64,000 nucleotides of DNA from a virus. Below the pieces are notes generated by a model. The model ran no database searches. It was given only the letters and a program-made list of their open reading frames with translations, and had not been told where the DNA came from. The DNA lies in IMG/VR virus record IMGVR_UViG_3300021335_000006, positions 1 through 64,000 of that record, one strand, 5' to 3'. The first letter of the stretch is position 1, and every line of letters starts with the position of its first letter. Both the position numbers and the translations under genes were made by a program. Positions 25,603 through 61,481 of the stretch are shown in pieces.

Positions 25603-26943
25603 ATGGCTCAAGGATTTGTAATACAAAATAACTTCTTTGAAAGTGACACGGGCGCTTCGGACAGAGGCATCCTTGATAACTTAGGAGGAAGCGGTATCAC
25701 GAATGATATCCTTTTGTTCGATGGAAATCTTCGTGCTGTTAGTTCAATCAAAGCAGTAGAGAGTCCTACGATTGCAGTAACTGATTTTGTTTTTACCGCA
25801 CCCAATACAATCGTATCAAATACAGCAAACTTCCTCGTACTCAATGATGGCGACACAATAGTCATATCTGAAACAGTAGACGGTCTGAATGATGGGACGT
25901 TTACTGTCAGTGGACAGCCGCAACAAACTACTTTGACTGTTGCGGGAACTTCTGGTGGTGACGCTCAAGATATTGTAACGTCTTCTGGAGAAGGAACAAT
26001 CGTTGGGCCTAATGCACCCAACTATGAAGTCGTAGATGGTGAGATTGTAATCATAGGAGAAGGTATTGTTCCATACGCTGAAGGAACTTTGGTGTCCTAT
26101 GCGAATGAGGGTGAGGCAGATGAATTTACTTACAAATATCGAGCAACTGACTCTGATACGCTTACTCGATTTTCTCTGATCGATACAACAACAGATCTTC
26201 CCTTTGTTCCGACTGCGCCGTTTAAAAACATTAATCGATCAGACTCTATTACGCAAAGCGATCTGTTTAACTTAAACACGCCCCGACCGGATACTGGAGT
26301 AGCATTTCTCGAAGGTAATAGTCAAGACGATGAAGAAGGCGCACCGGGCGCTGACGGTGAAAATGAAGCAACTGGGTCTACATCGCTGTTTGATCAGTTT
26401 AGTCTAGGGGAGCAGATTGCCTATATTCAAGAAAGAATTTCTCTGTTTGCATATAAGAGAGGTCGAGTTCCTATTACAAATAAGGATACTCTTTTAAACG
26501 CAAACGTCACTTTTGATGGTAGTATCTCTCTCGCAAACTTTAGTGGAATAAACTTAGAAATATCGAACCCAAGTCCACCTCCAGCCAACATAGTGAATCC
26601 CGCAGCACCTGGTTTGTTCATTCGAGGAATTGATGGCACTGCAATTAAAGCGTTTACAGATTTGTCAAATCCTTGGGGAGCGGATAACCCAAGTCCGACA
26701 CCTGGTCCTAATGTTGCTACTGATAGGCTCTTTACGGAACAAGATGCTGATGGTATTAATATTGTTGACGTTCAGATTAACAAGCTTAGCTTTAAACCTA
26801 CTACGGGAAATCAGCCAGAGTTTATTTTCAACAGTGGAGTTGGCGTAGTGTCTGTGTCTACAATTAATATCAACGATTACACGCACAAGCTCCCCGCTAC
26901 GATTAACGGGGAACTTTACTACTTGCTATTACAATCTGCTTAA
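25603..26943 (+). CDS. Tail appendage protein with small beta module
   Basis: A 446-residue structural protein. The N-terminus (about 1-50, GASDRGILDNLGGSGITNDI) resembles the anchor of the LRR protein and of the reverse-strand gene. Residues about 67-130 are another copy of the shared small beta module (FLVLNDGDTIVISETV, GLNDGTFTV). A short collagen-like or acidic linker (EEGAPGADGENEATG) lies near residue 250. The C-terminal part ends in NGELYYLLLQ, a short strand also seen in the last residues of the opposite-strand neighbour (EYEGATFNLLIQ), hinting at a common terminal fold. The ATG follows a weak GGA-containing ribosome site. The stop directly abuts the stop of the convergent gene. Confidence 0.7.
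   Translation: MAQGFVIQNNFFESDTGASDRGILDNLGGSGITNDILLFDGNLRAVSSIKAVESPTIAVTDFVFTAPNTIVSNTANFLVLNDGDTIVISETVDGLNDGTFTVSGQPQQTTLTVAGTSGGDAQDIVTSSGEGTIVGPNAPNYEVVDGEIVIIGEGIVPYAEGTLVSYANEGEADEFTYKYRATDSDTLTRFSLIDTTTDLPFVPTAPFKNINRSDSITQSDLFNLNTPRPDTGVAFLEGNSQDDEEGAPGADGENEATGSTSLFDQFSLGEQIAYIQERISLFAYKRGRVPITNKDTLLNANVTFDGSISLANFSGINLEISNPSPPPANIVNPAAPGLFIRGIDGTAIKAFTDLSNPWGADNPSPTPGPNVATDRLFTEQDADGINIVDVQINKLSFKPTTGNQPEFIFNSGVGVVSVSTININDYTHKLPATINGELYYLLLQSA
26887..26916. terminator. Weak candidate hairpin before the convergent gene junction
   Basis: TCCCCG (26,891-26,896) pairs with CGGGGA (26,907-26,912). Three further outer pairs follow one mismatch, and the loop is 10 bases. It lies in the last 60 bases of the plus-strand gene, close to where two convergent genes meet. 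No T-run follows it in the plus direction, so a terminator role is only a possibility. Confidence 0.2.
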
Positions 26944-29448
26944 TTACTGTATTAGTAGATTAAAAGTTGCGCCTTCATATTCGATAGGAACAACATTATT
27001 CGCTGTTGTTGTTCCTCCCAGAAGTGTTACAGTTGAACCAGATGGATCATCAATTTCTAATTCACTAAATGCTAGTTTACACGCAACGTTTGCGGGGGTG
27101 TCTGTACTATTTGTTCCCACTTTTAAATTTGGATTAGATGCTGTGGTGCTGAGTCCAGTATTTGTTCCAGCGAAAGGAGGTGCTGTGTTTAGTGGAATAA
27201 CACAAAACTCTTTTGATTGTCCGCCTGGGTTGAATGATTGACTAATAAATACGATAGTCACGTTCGTTGGAATATCTTCCGAAGTGGGCGAGCTTAACGT
27301 AATATCAGTACCATTGACAACAGTAAGTGTAACATTACTTGCTGCTGGAATTGCATCTCCAAATTGAACGTAATCACCATTGGTTAAGCCAGCAGTATCT
27401 GTCAATGTTAAAGTTGACGATCCCGAAGGTAAGAATGTAGCTGGCGAGGCTACAACCAACTCTTTTCCTAATACACCTTCGCATGGAATGATAGCAGTTT
27501 GATCTTTTAATCCCGCATTGGAGTAAACTGCAACCACGTATGTTGATGTTCCGAAAGAAGACACACCTGGTAGATTTGTGTCTACGGGAGTTGTCATCGT
27601 AACAGCACCTGCGACATCACTCGGATCTGGCGTAGCATTAGGTCCAAGTGGAGATCCCGCAACAATACTTCCTGCTGATGCCGTCTGAGCATATCCGATA
27701 ACAAGCATGTTTCTTTCAATCGGAGTATAAGTTCCAGTAATATCTCCAGAAACGCTAATCGAAGGAGTCGGGCCTCCAGTAATTTGAGTGACACTACCCG
27801 TTGATCCATTGTAATTGTATAGACCAATCAATCCTGCATTGTCGAAAAACACAACATCATAGACCCCATCTAACGCAAACGGGCCGAACGTAGGATTTGT
27901 ATCGTCTGTATCGACGTAAACGATGTCAAGCCCAGTAATCGGATCTTCTTGCACACTGAACACCTGGTAAACATAACTAGATCCTTGACCAAGATCAATT
28001 AGCATCCAAGTGCCTTCTTTAATATCGCTGTTGATAGCGGTCGCACATTCAAGTCGCCCAAATCCTCTGTGCGTGACTGAAACTCCACCCAGTGTTTTTT
28101 CCGCCGCTGTTTGGGGTGGAGTGTAGTCTAGTAGTAAAACTCCGTTTACATCGAGTTGCTCAGACATGTCTTGATTGATGGGCCGGGCTCTTACGTCTTC
28201 GAATACTTTGTAGCTGTACTGACTAAAAGTTTGATTACCCGCAGGTATAGAGTATACGTCAGTAAAGGGAAATCTATCATCGTTTCCTTGATCTTCAAGT
28301 AAAACCTTTGAGCGATACACTTTGTTGTCGGTTGCCGGAGTCTCGCCGGGTCGAATTGACAATTCAGATGGACGTGGGAACCAGTAAGTCAATCTTATCT
28401 TGGTTCTTTGTCCAAGCCTCGGACGAGTGATATAAATTATTCCTGTCCTAACTTCTTGAATACCAACTTCGAAGTAATGATAAAGAATTGTCTGTCCTCC
28501 ACCCCCTCCAACAAAATCAAGATCCCCTTCGACGGTGATTGTTTGAGCGACTTCATCAATTGCAGTTACAGTATATTCTGTGTTTGGATCATATGTACCG
28601 CCTGGGTTTGTGGTGATAACATCTCCGCTAGCTACGTATCGAATATCATCTCCGTAGTTTAAGACAGTAGATGATCCATCATAAGCAGTTTGGACAGTGA
28701 CATTACCTATTGGTATTTCTCGTGTTTGATCGTAAATGTTCTTCTTTGTTATCCAGTTACCGTCATTCAAGGTATCTTCTTCTACTAAAAACATACCTGT
28801 TGTTTCAAAAACGAAACTGAAGTCACTGGACATATATCCCGTCCATTGTATTAGACCATATGCATCCGGAAATGTTGGGTGCAACTTTCCATCAAAAGAA
28901 AAAATACCTCTATCCCAAAAGAATTCTGGCCCAATAATATCTCGTCTTAAAAATGGATGACCTGGCTCTACAGCGGGATCTGGTACATAAGTCGAGAATA
29001 GATTTCCTGTTCCGACTAAATCGTCTTTATCCGTTACAGCGACTGCTTGACTATTTCCAGTTGTTGTTGCAGATGCTGTTGGAGTTACCCGAGTAGAAGG
29101 AACAAAGTTTGCTAAAAATCCGTCACCTCCACCAATAAATGGTGGATCACCAAAGATTGTTTGGAAGTTACTAATGAAATCTTGGATTCTTAGAAGCGGT
29201 GTTACTGGAAGATTAGCACCATCTGAAAGTCGAGTAAATGTTACGACTCTACCATCTAGCTCTCGAAAGTCATCTGGACTAATCGCAGTGTTTCTCAGTC
29301 CGTCGATGATTAGCAAATCGTCTGGAATAAATCCATCTCCGGACACTGAGATATTATCTAGCAGATTCGTGAGAGCCGATATTGGATTCGAGAGATCAGC
29401 TAAATTTTTATCTGCTCTCAATCCAAACTTTTGATATTTTCTAGACAT
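26944..29448 (-). CDS. Virion structural protein encoded on the opposite strand
   Basis: An 834-residue protein and the only clear gene on the minus strand. The N-terminus (FGLRADKNLADLSNP, then ALTNLLDNI and IIDGLRN) resembles the anchor of the LRR protein and of the 446-residue neighbour, marking it as a tail-associated structural protein. The middle contains many short beta segments. Residues about 673-737 (TAGLTNGDYVQFGDAIP, then EDIPTNVTIVFIS) are a second copy of the module found near the gp8 N-terminus. The start lies next to a GGATTCCT leader and about 34 bases downstream of a perfect TATAAATA box on its own strand, part of a palindrome shared with the divergent gene. Its stop abuts the neighbour's stop with no spacer. 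It is probably late-expressed; receptor or baseplate function is not provable. Confidence 0.8.
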   Translation of the reverse strand: MSRKYQKFGLRADKNLADLSNPISALTNLLDNISVSGDGFIPDDLLIIDGLRNTAISPDDFRELDGRVVTFTRLSDGANLPVTPLLRIQDFISNFQTIFGDPPFIGGGDGFLANFVPSTRVTPTASATTTGNSQAVAVTDKDDLVGTGNLFSTYVPDPAVEPGHPFLRRDIIGPEFFWDRGIFSFDGKLHPTFPDAYGLIQWTGYMSSDFSFVFETTGMFLVEEDTLNDGNWITKKNIYDQTREIPIGNVTVQTAYDGSSTVLNYGDDIRYVASGDVITTNPGGTYDPNTEYTVTAIDEVAQTITVEGDLDFVGGGGGQTILYHYFEVGIQEVRTGIIYITRPRLGQRTKIRLTYWFPRPSELSIRPGETPATDNKVYRSKVLLEDQGNDDRFPFTDVYSIPAGNQTFSQYSYKVFEDVRARPINQDMSEQLDVNGVLLLDYTPPQTAAEKTLGGVSVTHRGFGRLECATAINSDIKEGTWMLIDLGQGSSYVYQVFSVQEDPITGLDIVYVDTDDTNPTFGPFALDGVYDVVFFDNAGLIGLYNYNGSTGSVTQITGGPTPSISVSGDITGTYTPIERNMLVIGYAQTASAGSIVAGSPLGPNATPDPSDVAGAVTMTTPVDTNLPGVSSFGTSTYVVAVYSNAGLKDQTAIIPCEGVLGKELVVASPATFLPSGSSTLTLTDTAGLTNGDYVQFGDAIPAASNVTLTVVNGTDITLSSPTSEDIPTNVTIVFISQSFNPGGQSKEFCVIPLNTAPPFAGTNTGLSTTASNPNLKVGTNSTDTPANVACKLAFSELEIDDPSGSTVTLLGGTTTANNVVPIEYEGATFNLLIQ

Positions 29449-29481
29449 AGGAATCCATTTTGTTAAATGAAAGGTTTATTG

Positions 29482-29489
29482 TATTTATA
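29482..29489 (-). promoter_or_regulatory. T4-type late promoter box, minus strand
   Basis: Perfect TATAAATA on the minus strand, about 34 bases upstream of the start of the reverse-strand structural gene. It overlaps the plus-strand box at 29,486-29,493; together they form a 12-base perfect palindrome (TATTTATAAATA). Confidence 0.75.
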
Positions 29490-29493
29490 AATA
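29486..29493 (+). promoter_or_regulatory. T4-type late promoter box, plus strand
   Basis: Perfect TATAAATA, 34 bases upstream of the 110-residue Ig-like gene. An AGGAG ribosome site follows just before the ATG. In T4 this octamer is read by the phage late sigma factor gp55 with clamp-bound gp33; those partners are not in this window. Confidence 0.8.
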
Positions 29494-29519
29494 TAATCAT
29501 GATTACTTAGGAGATCCCA

Positions 29520-29852
29520 ATGGCTATCAAAGCAAATCTTGTCGTTGATCAAGGCACAGATTTTTCAGCAACTATTGACGTTACAGATATCGACGGCGAA
29601 GTTTTTGATTTGTCGGGATATACAGTTGCCGCACAAATGCGTAAAAACTATGCGTCAACAACAGCGATCACATTCAGCGCCGCCCAAACCGGAGCAACGG
29701 GTCAGATCACGCTGGCATTAAACTCTGCACAGACAGTAGATATCGTTCCGGGTCGTTACCTATATGATGTAGAGATGACTTCTTTGGGTGGAGACATCAC
29801 AAGAGTTGTAGAAGGAGTTGTGACAGTTACACCGGGTATCACTAGAATTTAA
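29520..29852 (+). CDS. Small Ig-like (BppU-N-like) structural protein
   Basis: A 110-residue all-beta protein. The pattern KANLVVDQGTDFSATIDV, then FDLSGYTVAAQMRK, then GRYLYDVEMTS and a final VTVTPGITR is that of a small immunoglobulin-like domain found in many marine phages. It resembles the N-terminal domain of baseplate upper proteins (BppU_N type). The start is supported by AGGAG eight bases upstream and by the late promoter box at 29,486. It probably caps or decorates a tail appendage; the exact location in the particle is unknown. Confidence 0.75.
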   Translation: MAIKANLVVDQGTDFSATIDVTDIDGEVFDLSGYTVAAQMRKNYASTTAITFSAAQTGATGQITLALNSAQTVDIVPGRYLYDVEMTSLGGDITRVVEGVVTVTPGITRI

Positions 29853-29863
29853 GGTAAGCTATA

Positions 29864-30271
29864 ATGGGAAATATTAAAGCTACAGTAGCCCCAAGAAAGA
29901 ATATTGTCGTAACAAACTACACCGCTGGAGCAAGCGGTGGTGGACTTGGACTTAATAATGGTGGATTTACAACTGAAAATATTCTTCCTAATCAAGTGCT
30001 CGATTCCTTTGATCTTAATACAGTTAGATTTGCTAAGTATGCGATTCAAGGAACATACAACAACGAAATTCATGTGCTGGAGTTGAATCTTACACATGAC
30101 GGAACTGAAACTTTTATTAGTGTCTACGGTGAGATATTGAGTGATCCTGTACAACCATTGTTCACCTTTGACGCAGATATTGACACAAACTCAAATGAAG
30201 TAAGGCTTCTTGTTAGCCCGCTTTTTGTAGGAACTTCAATTAAATTTAGTCGAATAGAAGTTTTAGTATAA
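29864..30271 (+). CDS. Small beta-rich structural protein
   Basis: A 135-residue protein. Residues about 40-135 (DSFDLNTVRFAKYAIQGTY, LELNLTHDGTETFISVYGEI, FSRIEVLV) form a beta sandwich-like unit. The same type of unit closes the 1209-residue fibre at 33,588-37,217 (LVIRAKDATGEVQASEVLLV, YTVVETLIV), so here it seems to stand alone as a small protein. The first about 30 residues are glycine-rich. The stop codon lies inside the late promoter box of the next gene. Function is unknown beyond a likely role as a fibre cap or head domain. Confidence 0.65.
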   Translation: MGNIKATVAPRKNIVVTNYTAGASGGGLGLNNGGFTTENILPNQVLDSFDLNTVRFAKYAIQGTYNNEIHVLELNLTHDGTETFISVYGEILSDPVQPLFTFDADIDTNSNEVRLLVSPLFVGTSIKFSRIEVLV

Positions 30272-30274
30272 ATA
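30267..30274 (+). promoter_or_regulatory. T4-type late promoter box
   Basis: Perfect TATAAATA overlapping the stop codon of the preceding gene, 37 bases upstream of the TTG start of the 233-residue fibre protein. Confidence 0.75.
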
Positions 30275-30289
30275 ATTCATAAGGTCAAC

Positions 30290-30303
30290 GGGGAGAGGGA
30301 ACC
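30290..30303 (+). promoter_or_regulatory. Purine-rich leader and ribosome site before a TTG start
   Basis: GGGGAGAGGGAACC lies immediately before the TTG start at 30,304. A very similar leader, GGGGAGTGTGGAACC, precedes the GTG start at 37,256. The strong purine tract probably supports initiation at these non-ATG codons. Confidence 0.5.
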
Positions 30304-31005
30304 TTGGCTACGTTTCAAGATTTTATTGTAAAAAATGGTCTTGTTGTCAATAATGGCGCAACGATCAGTCAGGCTGTTACTATCGGACAGGATGCGACAA
30401 TCAACGGTATTACTGTTGGTGAAGGTCCAGTTGCGAACAATCTTGTATACGGCGTATCTCCTCTAGCAAATAATGTCTCTGGACAAAATAACATTGCTAT
30501 TGGAAATAACGCTGGGCAAGCGGTCACTGGATCAAACAACGTCATTATTGGTAATTTCAACGGAAACTCTAATGGGCTTGACATTTCATCGTCAAGTGGG
30601 AATGTTGTTTTAGCGGATGGATTAGGTGTTCCAAGACTCCTCGTAGACTCTCAAGGTCGTGTCGGGATTAATAATCTCAGCCCAACTGTTGAACTCGAAG
30701 TTGGTGGAGACGTAAAAGCAACAAACATTGAAGCATCTACGCTAAACTTAACAGGAGATATCACTGTTGGTGGAACAATCAACGCTGATGACTTCTTATT
30801 TACTGGGCCTTTCTTCACTCTGAATGAAGATCTTTCTAATCAAGTTGTTCCCTTCGAAGACGCTGGCTTGATTGTAAATCGTGGTGCTGAGCCTGATGTC
30901 TCGTTCTTTTGGGATGAAGACAATGATTACTGGACTACAGGGACTGATCCCAACACTGCTCAATTAGCTGAACTTGAAGCATATATTGACGGTGGAATCT
31001 ATTAA
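30304..31005 (+). CDS. Short tail fibre protein with YadA-like and WDE-type modules
   Basis: A 233-residue fibre-like protein. The start is TTG: it follows a strong purine tract, and MATFQDFIVKNGLVVNNGA is a typical fibre N-terminus that aligns with the GTG-started fibre at 37,256 (FKVRNGLFSQNVTF). Residues about 63-85 hold two YadA-head-like repeats (NIAIGNNAGQAVTGSN, NVIIGNF). A VGINNLSPTVELEVGG stalk element is followed by the module FFTLNEDLSN, then DAGLIVNRGAEPDVSFFWDE, which also occurs in the fibres at 33,588 and 37,256. It is short and may be a partial or capping version of the larger fibres. A perfect late promoter box precedes it. Confidence 0.75.
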   Translation: MATFQDFIVKNGLVVNNGATISQAVTIGQDATINGITVGEGPVANNLVYGVSPLANNVSGQNNIAIGNNAGQAVTGSNNVIIGNFNGNSNGLDISSSSGNVVLADGLGVPRLLVDSQGRVGINNLSPTVELEVGGDVKATNIEASTLNLTGDITVGGTINADDFLFTGPFFTLNEDLSNQVVPFEDAGLIVNRGAEPDVSFFWDEDNDYWTTGTDPNTAQLAELEAYIDGGIY

Positions 31006-31050
31006 TACATTTTTTAGCGCCTAAAGCAATTATACAGGTAAAGAGACATT

Positions 31051-33252
31051 ATGTCAATAATAAGACACAAAAGAAGCGACATTGCTGGAAGGGTTCCAAC
31101 AACAACACAGATTGATACTGGTGAAATTGCTATCAACACTCATGATGGCAAGATGTACTTTACTCGTGATAAAGATGGAACTATTAGCGTCAGAGAAGTA
31201 GGCTTAGCGGAGAGAACTGATAATGTCTTATACGTCTCGAAAACTGGAAGCGATACGGATAACAATGGAACGACTCTTGCAGAAGCTTTCGCAACAATTA
31301 ACCAAGCACTCTCAGTTGCCCAACCAGGCACAACTATTTTTCTAAAGAGCGGAGATCATGTTCTAGACAATAGCGCAGGTGGTGTAAACATCCCAGAAAG
31401 AGTTGCGATTGTCGGAGACAATCTTCGCACAACAAATATTCGTCCTTCAGTGTCAACGAACGATCTCTTTTATGTAAATAACGGATCTCACTTCACCGGT
31501 GTAACGTTTAGAGACTATGTGTCTCCTTCAGCGGCTGTATCGTTTAATCCAGACGGATCAGCAGGCGAGATTCGAACATCTCCTTATGTTCAAAACTGTA
31601 GTTCAATTACAACTACCGGAACAGGAATGAGAATCGACGGCAATCACTGTTCCGGTCTTCGTTCAATGGTTGCTGATGCATACACTAATATCAACTTTGG
31701 CGGAATTGGCGTTCATCTTCTGAATCGTGGATATGCTCAGCTTGTATCTCAGTTTACGATTTCGTGCGAAGATGGGATTCTAGCGGAAAACGGTGGATTC
31801 TGCTCTCTAACAAACTCAAACTGCTCATTCGGTACTTACGGGTTGAGAGCAACAGGTACGAGTGGTGTCATATATACAGCCACTTCGTCTGGACTGGCTA
31901 GAGCAACAACGAGTGTGATTGAGTTAAAAGATGTTACAGAGCGACCCAAATACGGAGATGCTATTAAGTTTGCGGGGATTGACAAGTATCACACAGTAGA
32001 AAACACATCGGGTCTTTTTGTTACAGAAGAAATTGAAAACATTGTATATCCTGCGGCACCAGGTTCTACTGTAAATGAATTAAATGCGTCTCAGCAACTT
32101 CAAAACAATAGAACATTTGCGTCAGAAAAGACTGTCAGATACATTGAAGAAAACTATCCGGAAATCGAGTATAACATCGGTAAGTGTAAGAGAGATATTC
32201 ATTACATCGTTGATGCACTTACTCATGATATTTTGTATGGCGGTAATACAGCAACCCTTTCTGTTGCTCAGGCATACTTTGTTGGAGCGGTTAGTCAGTT
32301 ACCCGCAGATCAAGTTACTGCAACAATTAACTCATATGAATATTTGAAAACTTTGCTTGGACAAATCGTTCAAGAACTAGCAATGGGTCAGAACACAGAT
32401 GCTGCAGCCGCTAGTCAGACAGAGACTAATCGTGTTGAAGCCTTAGTTGATATTATTATCGATGTAATTACAGCAGGCAATCTTGACAATCTTCCTGCCG
32501 TTGTCGATCCAGACTTTACTGGTGTAGATTTGACAGATTATAACACAATCTTAGCGGCAAAAGCAACACTTCAAGCGGACGTGATTACATATATTAACAC
32601 AACATATCCAGCACTTGATTACGATGAAGCAAAGTGTAGTCGAGACGTTGGTTTGATTGTTGATGCGGTAATACGAGATCTTGCGCTTGGTACAGATTAT
32701 AACTCTACGCTTGCTGGTGCATCGTATCAGAGAGCAAACGCATCGGTTGTAGTAAATGAGCAAGAAGCTGAAACTGTTGACGCTATTAACTATCTTCGAG
32801 ATCAAATCAATGCATTAGCGATTGATCCCGCAACACAATCTATTGTGACAACGAGCATTTCGACAATTACAACAATTATAGTAGATGGTGATACAGCAAC
32901 ACTCACGCTTCTTGAGTCTTTGGATCAGGATATTGTTGATTCGACTACAATGGAGTTTTTCCAAAGAAGTCTGATTGTTGCTAGCTCGATTACATTTGAA
33001 TATATAGGAACAGGCACTGAAGTATTCTATAATACTCCGAGAACAGGTGCGATTCCAATTCAAGCGAACGAAATTGTATTTGACGATAACAATGCTGGAC
33101 AAGTGTACTTTACAAGTACGGATCACAAAGGTGATTTCAGAATTGGATCAGAACTTTTAATTAACAGGGACGCAGGTATTATTGAGGGTGTGACCTTCGA
33201 TAGATCACTTTTTGCTGTGTTGACGCCCTACATATTAGCGATAGAAGGATAA
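31051..33252 (+). CDS. Beta-helix tail fibre with cysteine-RD helical repeats
   Basis: A 733-residue protein. The N-terminus (about 5-45, KRSDIAGRVPTTTQIDTGEI, then KMYFTRD) is the short trimerising, shaft-attaching motif found at the start of many phage fibres, including Mtd-like ones. Residues about 60-290 form a pectate-lyase-like beta-helix with DUF1565-like features (VSKTGSDTDNNGTTLAEAFA, VNIPERVAIVGDNLRTTNI). Then follow two helical cysteine-RD repeats around Cys379 (KCKRDIHYIVDALTHDI) and Cys529 (KCSRDVGLIVDAVIRDL), the same unit as in the 1389-residue protein at 14,968. The last 90 residues are beta-rich. A role in surface binding is likely; enzymatic action cannot be shown. An AAAGAGA ribosome site precedes the ATG. 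Confidence 0.8.
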   Translation: MSIIRHKRSDIAGRVPTTTQIDTGEIAINTHDGKMYFTRDKDGTISVREVGLAERTDNVLYVSKTGSDTDNNGTTLAEAFATINQALSVAQPGTTIFLKSGDHVLDNSAGGVNIPERVAIVGDNLRTTNIRPSVSTNDLFYVNNGSHFTGVTFRDYVSPSAAVSFNPDGSAGEIRTSPYVQNCSSITTTGTGMRIDGNHCSGLRSMVADAYTNINFGGIGVHLLNRGYAQLVSQFTISCEDGILAENGGFCSLTNSNCSFGTYGLRATGTSGVIYTATSSGLARATTSVIELKDVTERPKYGDAIKFAGIDKYHTVENTSGLFVTEEIENIVYPAAPGSTVNELNASQQLQNNRTFASEKTVRYIEENYPEIEYNIGKCKRDIHYIVDALTHDILYGGNTATLSVAQAYFVGAVSQLPADQVTATINSYEYLKTLLGQIVQELAMGQNTDAAAASQTETNRVEALVDIIIDVITAGNLDNLPAVVDPDFTGVDLTDYNTILAAKATLQADVITYINTTYPALDYDEAKCSRDVGLIVDAVIRDLALGTDYNSTLAGASYQRANASVVVNEQEAETVDAINYLRDQINALAIDPATQSIVTTSISTITTIIVDGDTATLTLLESLDQDIVDSTTMEFFQRSLIVASSITFEYIGTGTEVFYNTPRTGAIPIQANEIVFDDNNAGQVYFTSTDHKGDFRIGSELLINRDAGIIEGVTFDRSLFAVLTPYILAIEG

Positions 33253-59887: not shown

Positions 59888-61481
59888 TAAGGGTTACTTA
59901 GGTAATACAAATCTAAAGGGAAAGAATGCTAGTATAGAATTCTCCCAAGATATGATTTCAGAGTATGTTAAATGCTCCAGAGATCCTATCTATTTCGTCG
60001 AAAAATATATCCAGATTGTTCATGTAGATCATGGATTGATTCCAATTGTATTATATGACTATCAGAAAGAGATTATAACGTCTATCACTGAAAATCGCCG
60101 TGTGGCGGTTAACACGAGCCGTCAGGCGGGTAAAACGACTACTGCAGTCGCTATTATTCTTTGGTACATTCTTTTCAATGACTATAAAACTGTCGCACTT
60201 CTTGCAAACAAAGGAGATGCGGCTAGAGAGATCTTGGCTCGAATTAAGATTGCATATGAAGCACTTCCAAAGTGGCTTCAACAAGGTGTTATTGAATGGA
60301 ACAAAGGATCTGTAGAGTTTGAGAATGGATGCAAGATTCTTGCTGGATCAACATCATCGAGCGCAATTCGAGGTAAGTCAGTTTCTTTTTTGTACATTGA
60401 TGAGACAGCGTTTGTCGAAGGATGGGATGAATTCTTTAGTTCAGTTTATCCTACTATTTCGTCTGGTAACACGACAAAAATACTTCTTACTTCTACTCCC
60501 AATGGCCTGAATCATTTCTATAAAACTTGCAATGGTGCAATTGAAAACATTAACGGATATATATACGTAGAAGTCCCTTGGTATAATGTACCCGGTCGAG
60601 ATGAAGAGTGGAAGACAGAAACTCTTCAAGGAATGGATTTTGACAAAGAAAAGTTTGCGCAAGAATATGAGTGTCAATTCTTAGGGAGTTCTGGTACTCT
60701 GATTGAAGGATCAAAGCTCAAACAGCTTGTATATAAGAGTCCAATTATGGAGGGAAATGGACTTTCAATATACAAAGAAGCTATAGAAGATCATGTTTAT
60801 GTTTGCATCGCAGATGTTTCCAGAGGAAAAGGACTCGACTATTCCGCTTTCCAAGTAATTGATGTGACTTCTATGCCTTATGAGCAAGTTTGTACGTTTA
60901 GAGATAACACAGTCACTCCCATTAACTACGCTGAAATATTATATCGAGCATCAAGGCGATATCGAGATGCATATGTTTTAGTGGAAGTAAATGATATTGG
61001 TGGACAAGTAGCAGATCTATTACACTATGAGTTTGAAGTAGAATCCTTAATGTATACGGAAACTGCTGGAAGGGCAGGAAAGCGGATAAGCAGTGGATTT
61101 GGCGGGGCCGTTGAGCGGGGTATTCGTACTACAAAATCGGTGAAAACAATTGGATGTAATATGCTGAAACTTCTCATTGAGCAGGATCAGTTAGTAATAA
61201 ATGATTTTGAATCTATTAGGGAGCTTTCAACTTTTTCTAGACGCCGCTCTTCTTATGAGGCTGAAGCGGGATGTCATGACGACCTTGTAATGTGTTTGGT
61301 TTTGTTCGGTTGGTTGACTGATCAAATGTTCTTTAAAGAGATCACAAATATAAATACAATGAACATGCTCAAAGAAAGAAACGAAGAAGAGTTGATGGAA
61401 TCGTTATTGCCCATCGGCTTCAATTCCTACGATGACGACCATGACGACGATCAATCATTTAAGACATGGTTTAAGTACTAA
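59874..61481 (+). CDS. gp17: Large terminase subunit gp17
   Basis: A 535-residue packaging motor, with an N-terminal ATPase and a C-terminal RNase H-like nuclease. The Walker A-like motif is SRQAGKTT (residues 82-89, Lys87), close to SRQLGKTT of T4. Walker B is FLYIDE (Asp176, catalytic Glu177), followed by a LLTSTPNG motif. Nuclease acidic residues are in ADVSRGKGLDYSA (Asp314), VEVNDIGG (Glu371 and Asp374) and CHDDLV (Asp469/470). All key motifs look intact. It starts within the end of gp16, which supports coupled translation. T4 gp17 has 610 residues; shorter forms are usual in marine relatives. The C-terminus ends with an aspartate-rich DDDHDDDQ stretch. It acts at the prohead portal. Confidence 0.98.
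   Translation: MLKTDKGYLGNTNLKGKNASIEFSQDMISEYVKCSRDPIYFVEKYIQIVHVDHGLIPIVLYDYQKEIITSITENRRVAVNTSRQAGKTTTAVAIILWYILFNDYKTVALLANKGDAAREILARIKIAYEALPKWLQQGVIEWNKGSVEFENGCKILAGSTSSSAIRGKSVSFLYIDETAFVEGWDEFFSSVYPTISSGNTTKILLTSTPNGLNHFYKTCNGAIENINGYIYVEVPWYNVPGRDEEWKTETLQGMDFDKEKFAQEYECQFLGSSGTLIEGSKLKQLVYKSPIMEGNGLSIYKEAIEDHVYVCIADVSRGKGLDYSAFQVIDVTSMPYEQVCTFRDNTVTPINYAEILYRASRRYRDAYVLVEVNDIGGQVADLLHYEFEVESLMYTETAGRAGKRISSGFGGAVERGIRTTKSVKTIGCNMLKLLIEQDQLVINDFESIRELSTFSRRRSSYEAEAGCHDDLVMCLVLFGWLTDQMFFKEITNINTMNMLKERNEEELMESLLPIGFNSYDDDHDDDQSFKTWFKY

Follow-up and report, generated by a model that had tools for sequence, protein, structure and literature searches.

The window analysed here is the whole 64,000-nucleotide stretch, positions 1 to 64,000 of the virus record IMGVR_UViG_3300021335_000006. 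Nearly all genes of this phage are on the plus strand. An 834-aa gene in the window is inverted, and the 71-bp gap between it and a 110-aa plus-strand gene houses the sequence TATTTATAAATA. The features at this locus are as follows.

26944..29448, minus strand: 834-aa inverted gene; its homologue in the related genome L009 (29% identity, E 5e-78) is inverted too
29482..29493, both strands: palindrome TATTTATAAATA, two overlapping late-promoter boxes
29482..29489, minus strand: TATAAATA late box, predicted +1 near 29476 by the T4 rule
29486..29493, plus strand: TATAAATA late box, predicted +1 near 29499 by the T4 rule
29509..29513, plus strand: AGGAG ribosome-binding site of the 110-aa gene, read directly from the sequence
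29520..29852, plus strand: 110-aa gene, phrog_1084 / phrog_3304, L-shaped tail fibre assembly

TATTTATAAATA is a perfect 12-bp palindrome and its copy at 29482-29493 is the only exact one in the window, where dinucleotide shuffles lead to an expectation of 0.01 copies. The complete virus record of 130,810 bp likewise has this one copy only. As the initial annotation had described, it consists of two TATAAATA boxes, one per strand, with 4 bp in common and with divergent genes on the two sides. The plus box is separated by 26 bp from the ATG at 29520 and the minus box by 33 bp from the minus start codon at 29448; the initial annotation had put the starts about 27-34 bases away. In T4 the late box occupies positions -13 to -6 (PMC1524935). 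By this rule the starts predicted near 29499 (+) and 29476 (-) are both A and are 23 bp apart, and the leaders are ~21 nt (+) and ~28 nt (-) long. Each strand has the features of a T4-type late promoter, namely an exact box, no -35 element and a short leader.

The palindrome had also been proposed to set a ratio between two structural proteins. The structural assignment is supported for the plus-strand product, which matches tail-fibre-assembly families and has a weak LtfC-like beta-sandwich match in Pfam, slightly under the cut-off. By contrast, the minus-strand product matches nothing; no family was found in PHROG, Pfam or PDB, with a single chance match in the latter (E 0.27), and no matching protein was found in known phages. 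Structure prediction for this product was uninformative (pLDDT 30). The region around the palindrome had no DNA match in known phages, and 26500-32000 contained no Rfam family. Inspection of the minus leader of the 834-aa gene revealed no strong ribosome-binding site. Because the leader, the ribosome-binding site and the bases flanking the box differ between the two directions, there is no sign of a fixed protein ratio, and this part of the proposal is unsupported with one partner lacking a family and the leaders differing in ribosome-binding quality.

At its distal end, the 834-aa minus gene converges with the plus gene 25603-26943 at 26943/26944. There is zero intergenic space at this point, so leftward late transcripts would go antisense into the 25603-26943 gene unless stopped.

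Late promoters and late transcription proteins of this phage

The phage encodes both a gp55-like protein, the late sigma factor (E 9e-26, L058), and a gp45-like sliding clamp (E 6e-19, L059). Further T4 homologues encoded are gp44, gp43, gp41, uvsX, uvsW and gp24. No match to the gp33 co-activator was obtained when the Syn9 protein, which is short and divergent, served as the query.

TATAAATA occurs 6 times in the window compared with 4.0 expected occurrences, so the raw count is not enriched. The placement of the boxes is non-random; those on the plus strand are mostly intergenic and about 26-43 nt ahead of a plus start. The box-to-start spacings at the palindrome are typical for late promoters of this phage. 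There are four TATAAATA boxes on the minus strand of the record, and only the one at 29482 is well placed ahead of a substantial minus gene. The others are at 72660 (within a plus gene), at 104886 (with no minus gene) and at 130573 (62 nt from a 171-aa minus ORF).

The palindrome in T4-like reference phages

The initial annotation regarded a palindromic late promoter as unusual in T4-like late regions. A search for the 12-mer in 20 T4-like reference records did not bear this out. There is one copy each in T4, RB69 and JS98 and there are two in Acinetobacter phage 133 (Acj133), and all five copies are between divergent genes: 26 and 51 in the four phages, and inh and uvsW in Acj133. In T4 the identical TATTTATAAATA is at 116450-116461, is the sole copy of that genome and is flanked by divergent late genes that begin at 116428 (-) and 116479 (+). 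The gene pair is different, with baseplate hub genes in T4 compared with a tail-fibre-assembly-like gene and a gene of unknown function here, and the leaders are about 21 and 28 nt here whereas they are 12 and 16 nt in T4. The inh and uvsW copy in Acj133 represents the same 12-mer between another divergent gene pair. The arrangement is therefore already present in T4, and the site described here is a further example of it and not a new type of switch.

Scarlato and colleagues are said to have described, in Virology in 1989, overlapping promoters that direct divergent transcription of the T4 base plate gene cluster, and we take the overlap between T4 genes 26 and 51 to be the arrangement that they reported. 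Our literature search on bidirectional or overlapping late promoters found no report in the collection searched, and promoters are not discussed in one T4 transcriptome paper.

A census of late promoters was carried out in seven genomes (this one, T4, Acj133, RB69, JS98, Syn9 and HTVC008M). The 12-mer was present at 12/31 divergent promoters counted strand-wise, which corresponds to 6/22 junctions after de-duplication by hand, and at 0/66 co-directional late promoters (Fisher p 1.4e-4), a value that overstates the evidence because the 26 and 51 junction is orthologous across four phages and the independent cases are nearer three. Of the genomes added to this census, RB49 had the 12-mer at 0/4 divergent sites, and Pelagibacter phage Mosig had two divergent junctions, one of them with a 14-mer that is considered below.

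We also observed a second recurring geometry in which facing divergent late boxes are offset by 14-15 bp. Such sites are present in T4 at ~77349-77371 (L107:17349-17371), in JS98 at ~76239-76261 (L133:16239-16261) and at the inh junctions of T4, RB69 and JS98. At the T4 and RB69 junctions of inh with segE or uvsW the two boxes are offset by ~14 bp, unlike the palindrome in Acj133. Because offset boxes face each other at 14-15 bp, transcripts from them would overlap. Both the palindrome and the offset-box pairs occur in these phages, and close or overlapping divergent late promoters are therefore normal in T4-like late regions.

The palindrome in relatives

The 110-aa gene has homologues at 32 IMG/VR loci, and in most relatives a plus late box is 29-41 nt ahead of them. 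L002 and L003 have identical sequence and represent nearly the same phage. Among more distant genomes, L009 alone has a homologue of the inverted gene, and a profile scan for further inverted homologues returned only the same phage and L009. The L009 junction contains TATTTATATAAATA, a 14-bp palindrome in which two bases have been added at the dyad and both boxes are intact, and the leader around it is otherwise changed. Thus, where the inverted gene is kept, which is where the initial annotation had suggested looking, the palindrome is kept as a 14-bp variant. L009 is the sole divergent relative found with both boxes and the same gene order. The same 14-bp variant is present in Mosig at 60971-60984 between divergent genes; these are metabolic (Asp/Arg hydroxylase-like and nitroreductase-like) and their late class is putative.

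The symmetry of the site might instead, or in addition, reflect an operator for a dimeric DNA-binding protein. Perfect dyad symmetry is what such an operator would have, but the two overlapping late boxes fully account for it, the palindrome has no second copy in the genome and the dyad spacing in L009 differs by 2 bp, a change that an operator would tolerate poorly. We consider an operator very improbable.

The second alternative is that the plus box alone is a promoter and that the minus box arose by chance from an upstream TATT in an AT-rich leader. The inverted gene would then be transcribed from elsewhere, for instance by ~1.6 kb of read-through from a perfect minus-strand sigma70-like promoter (TTGACA-N17-TATAAT, 31057-31029). 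In line with this, two co-directional late promoters of relatives contain the 12-mer, one in L015 ahead of a 110-aa homologue with a co-directional neighbour and one in G026 (L062) ahead of a tail-sheath-like gene. These cases show that an AT-rich leader can give rise to the 12-mer even where no divergent gene is present, and because of them we regard the palindrome as suggestive and not diagnostic. The weak ribosome-binding context of the minus leader also counts against a two-way reading, as do L023 and L026, where the gene upstream is divergent but of another type and the plus box has no minus counterpart. However, co-directional late promoters seldom have the 12-mer (1/20 in the loci of relatives, in addition to the 0/66 of the seven genomes) and both boxes were retained in L009 despite the 2-bp change in length. 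Moreover, the promoter at 31057 is also found in relatives that lack the inverted gene and so is not there for that gene. On balance, transcription from the plus box alone seems unlikely, though less so than the operator.

In L015 the exact palindrome is in a 226-bp gap (L015:4775-5000) that has no divergent gene. This copy could be due to chance or could mark where an inverted gene has been lost.

A predicted two-way late promoter

We think it highly probable that the palindrome represents two T4-type late promoters that overlap and are placed back to back, and the site is predicted very probably to work in both directions. For initiation in both directions we rely on the sequence, the spacing, the gp55 and gp45 genes, the conservation and the likeness to known phages. 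Late holoenzyme recognises the 8-bp box alone, and the clamp is bound to the promoter complex at its upstream end (PMC2988020). The late RNA polymerase of this phage, comprising host core, the gp55-like sigma and the gp45-like clamp, would bind the same 12 bp either way round. Initiation near 29499 would lead rightward into the 110-aa tail-fibre-assembly-like gene and the genes beyond, and initiation near 29476 would lead leftward into the inverted 834-aa gene. Because the boxes share 4 bp and the predicted starts are 23 bp apart, one polymerase at a time would be accommodated on the palindrome, and it is plausible from this geometry, and likely, that the two directions exclude each other.

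In itself the palindrome is ordinary T4-type late regulation. These comparisons indicate that the device used between T4 genes 26 and 51, a 12-bp site between divergent late genes, is used again in other T4-like phages at gene pairs that are unrelated, and that a symmetric expansion by 2 bp is tolerated. Sites of this kind lend themselves to studying whether the orientation of the clamp sets the direction of transcription.

Antisense sigma70-like promoters

The minus-strand promoter at 31057-31029 overlaps the start codon of a tail-fibre gene at 31051. A perfect antisense promoter of this type, with an N16 or N17 spacer, is present at the homologous gene start at 12 loci from relatives (L003, L004, L006-L011 and L013-L016), including ones without the inverted gene. 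In most of these loci the -10 element is directly followed by a 12-bp dyad, NGCTATATAGCN, with GTCTATATAGAC in L007. The outer pair of the NGCTATATAGCN dyad covaries through all four combinations, a compensatory pattern. A possible role for the promoter and dyad is to produce an early antisense transcript or to form an R-loop origin comparable to T4 ori34. As a comparison, the primer RNA of the annotated T4 oriG (ori34) and the long tail fibre gene 34 point in opposite directions, which amounts to a resemblance and no more. The antisense promoter with its covarying dyad may be more novel than the palindrome, and the pair at 31051 deserves separate study. A second perfect minus-strand sigma70-like promoter is at record position 83084 (L058:19084), just left of the gp55-like gene, and is immediately followed by the inverted repeat CCTG-TTAACG-CAGG.
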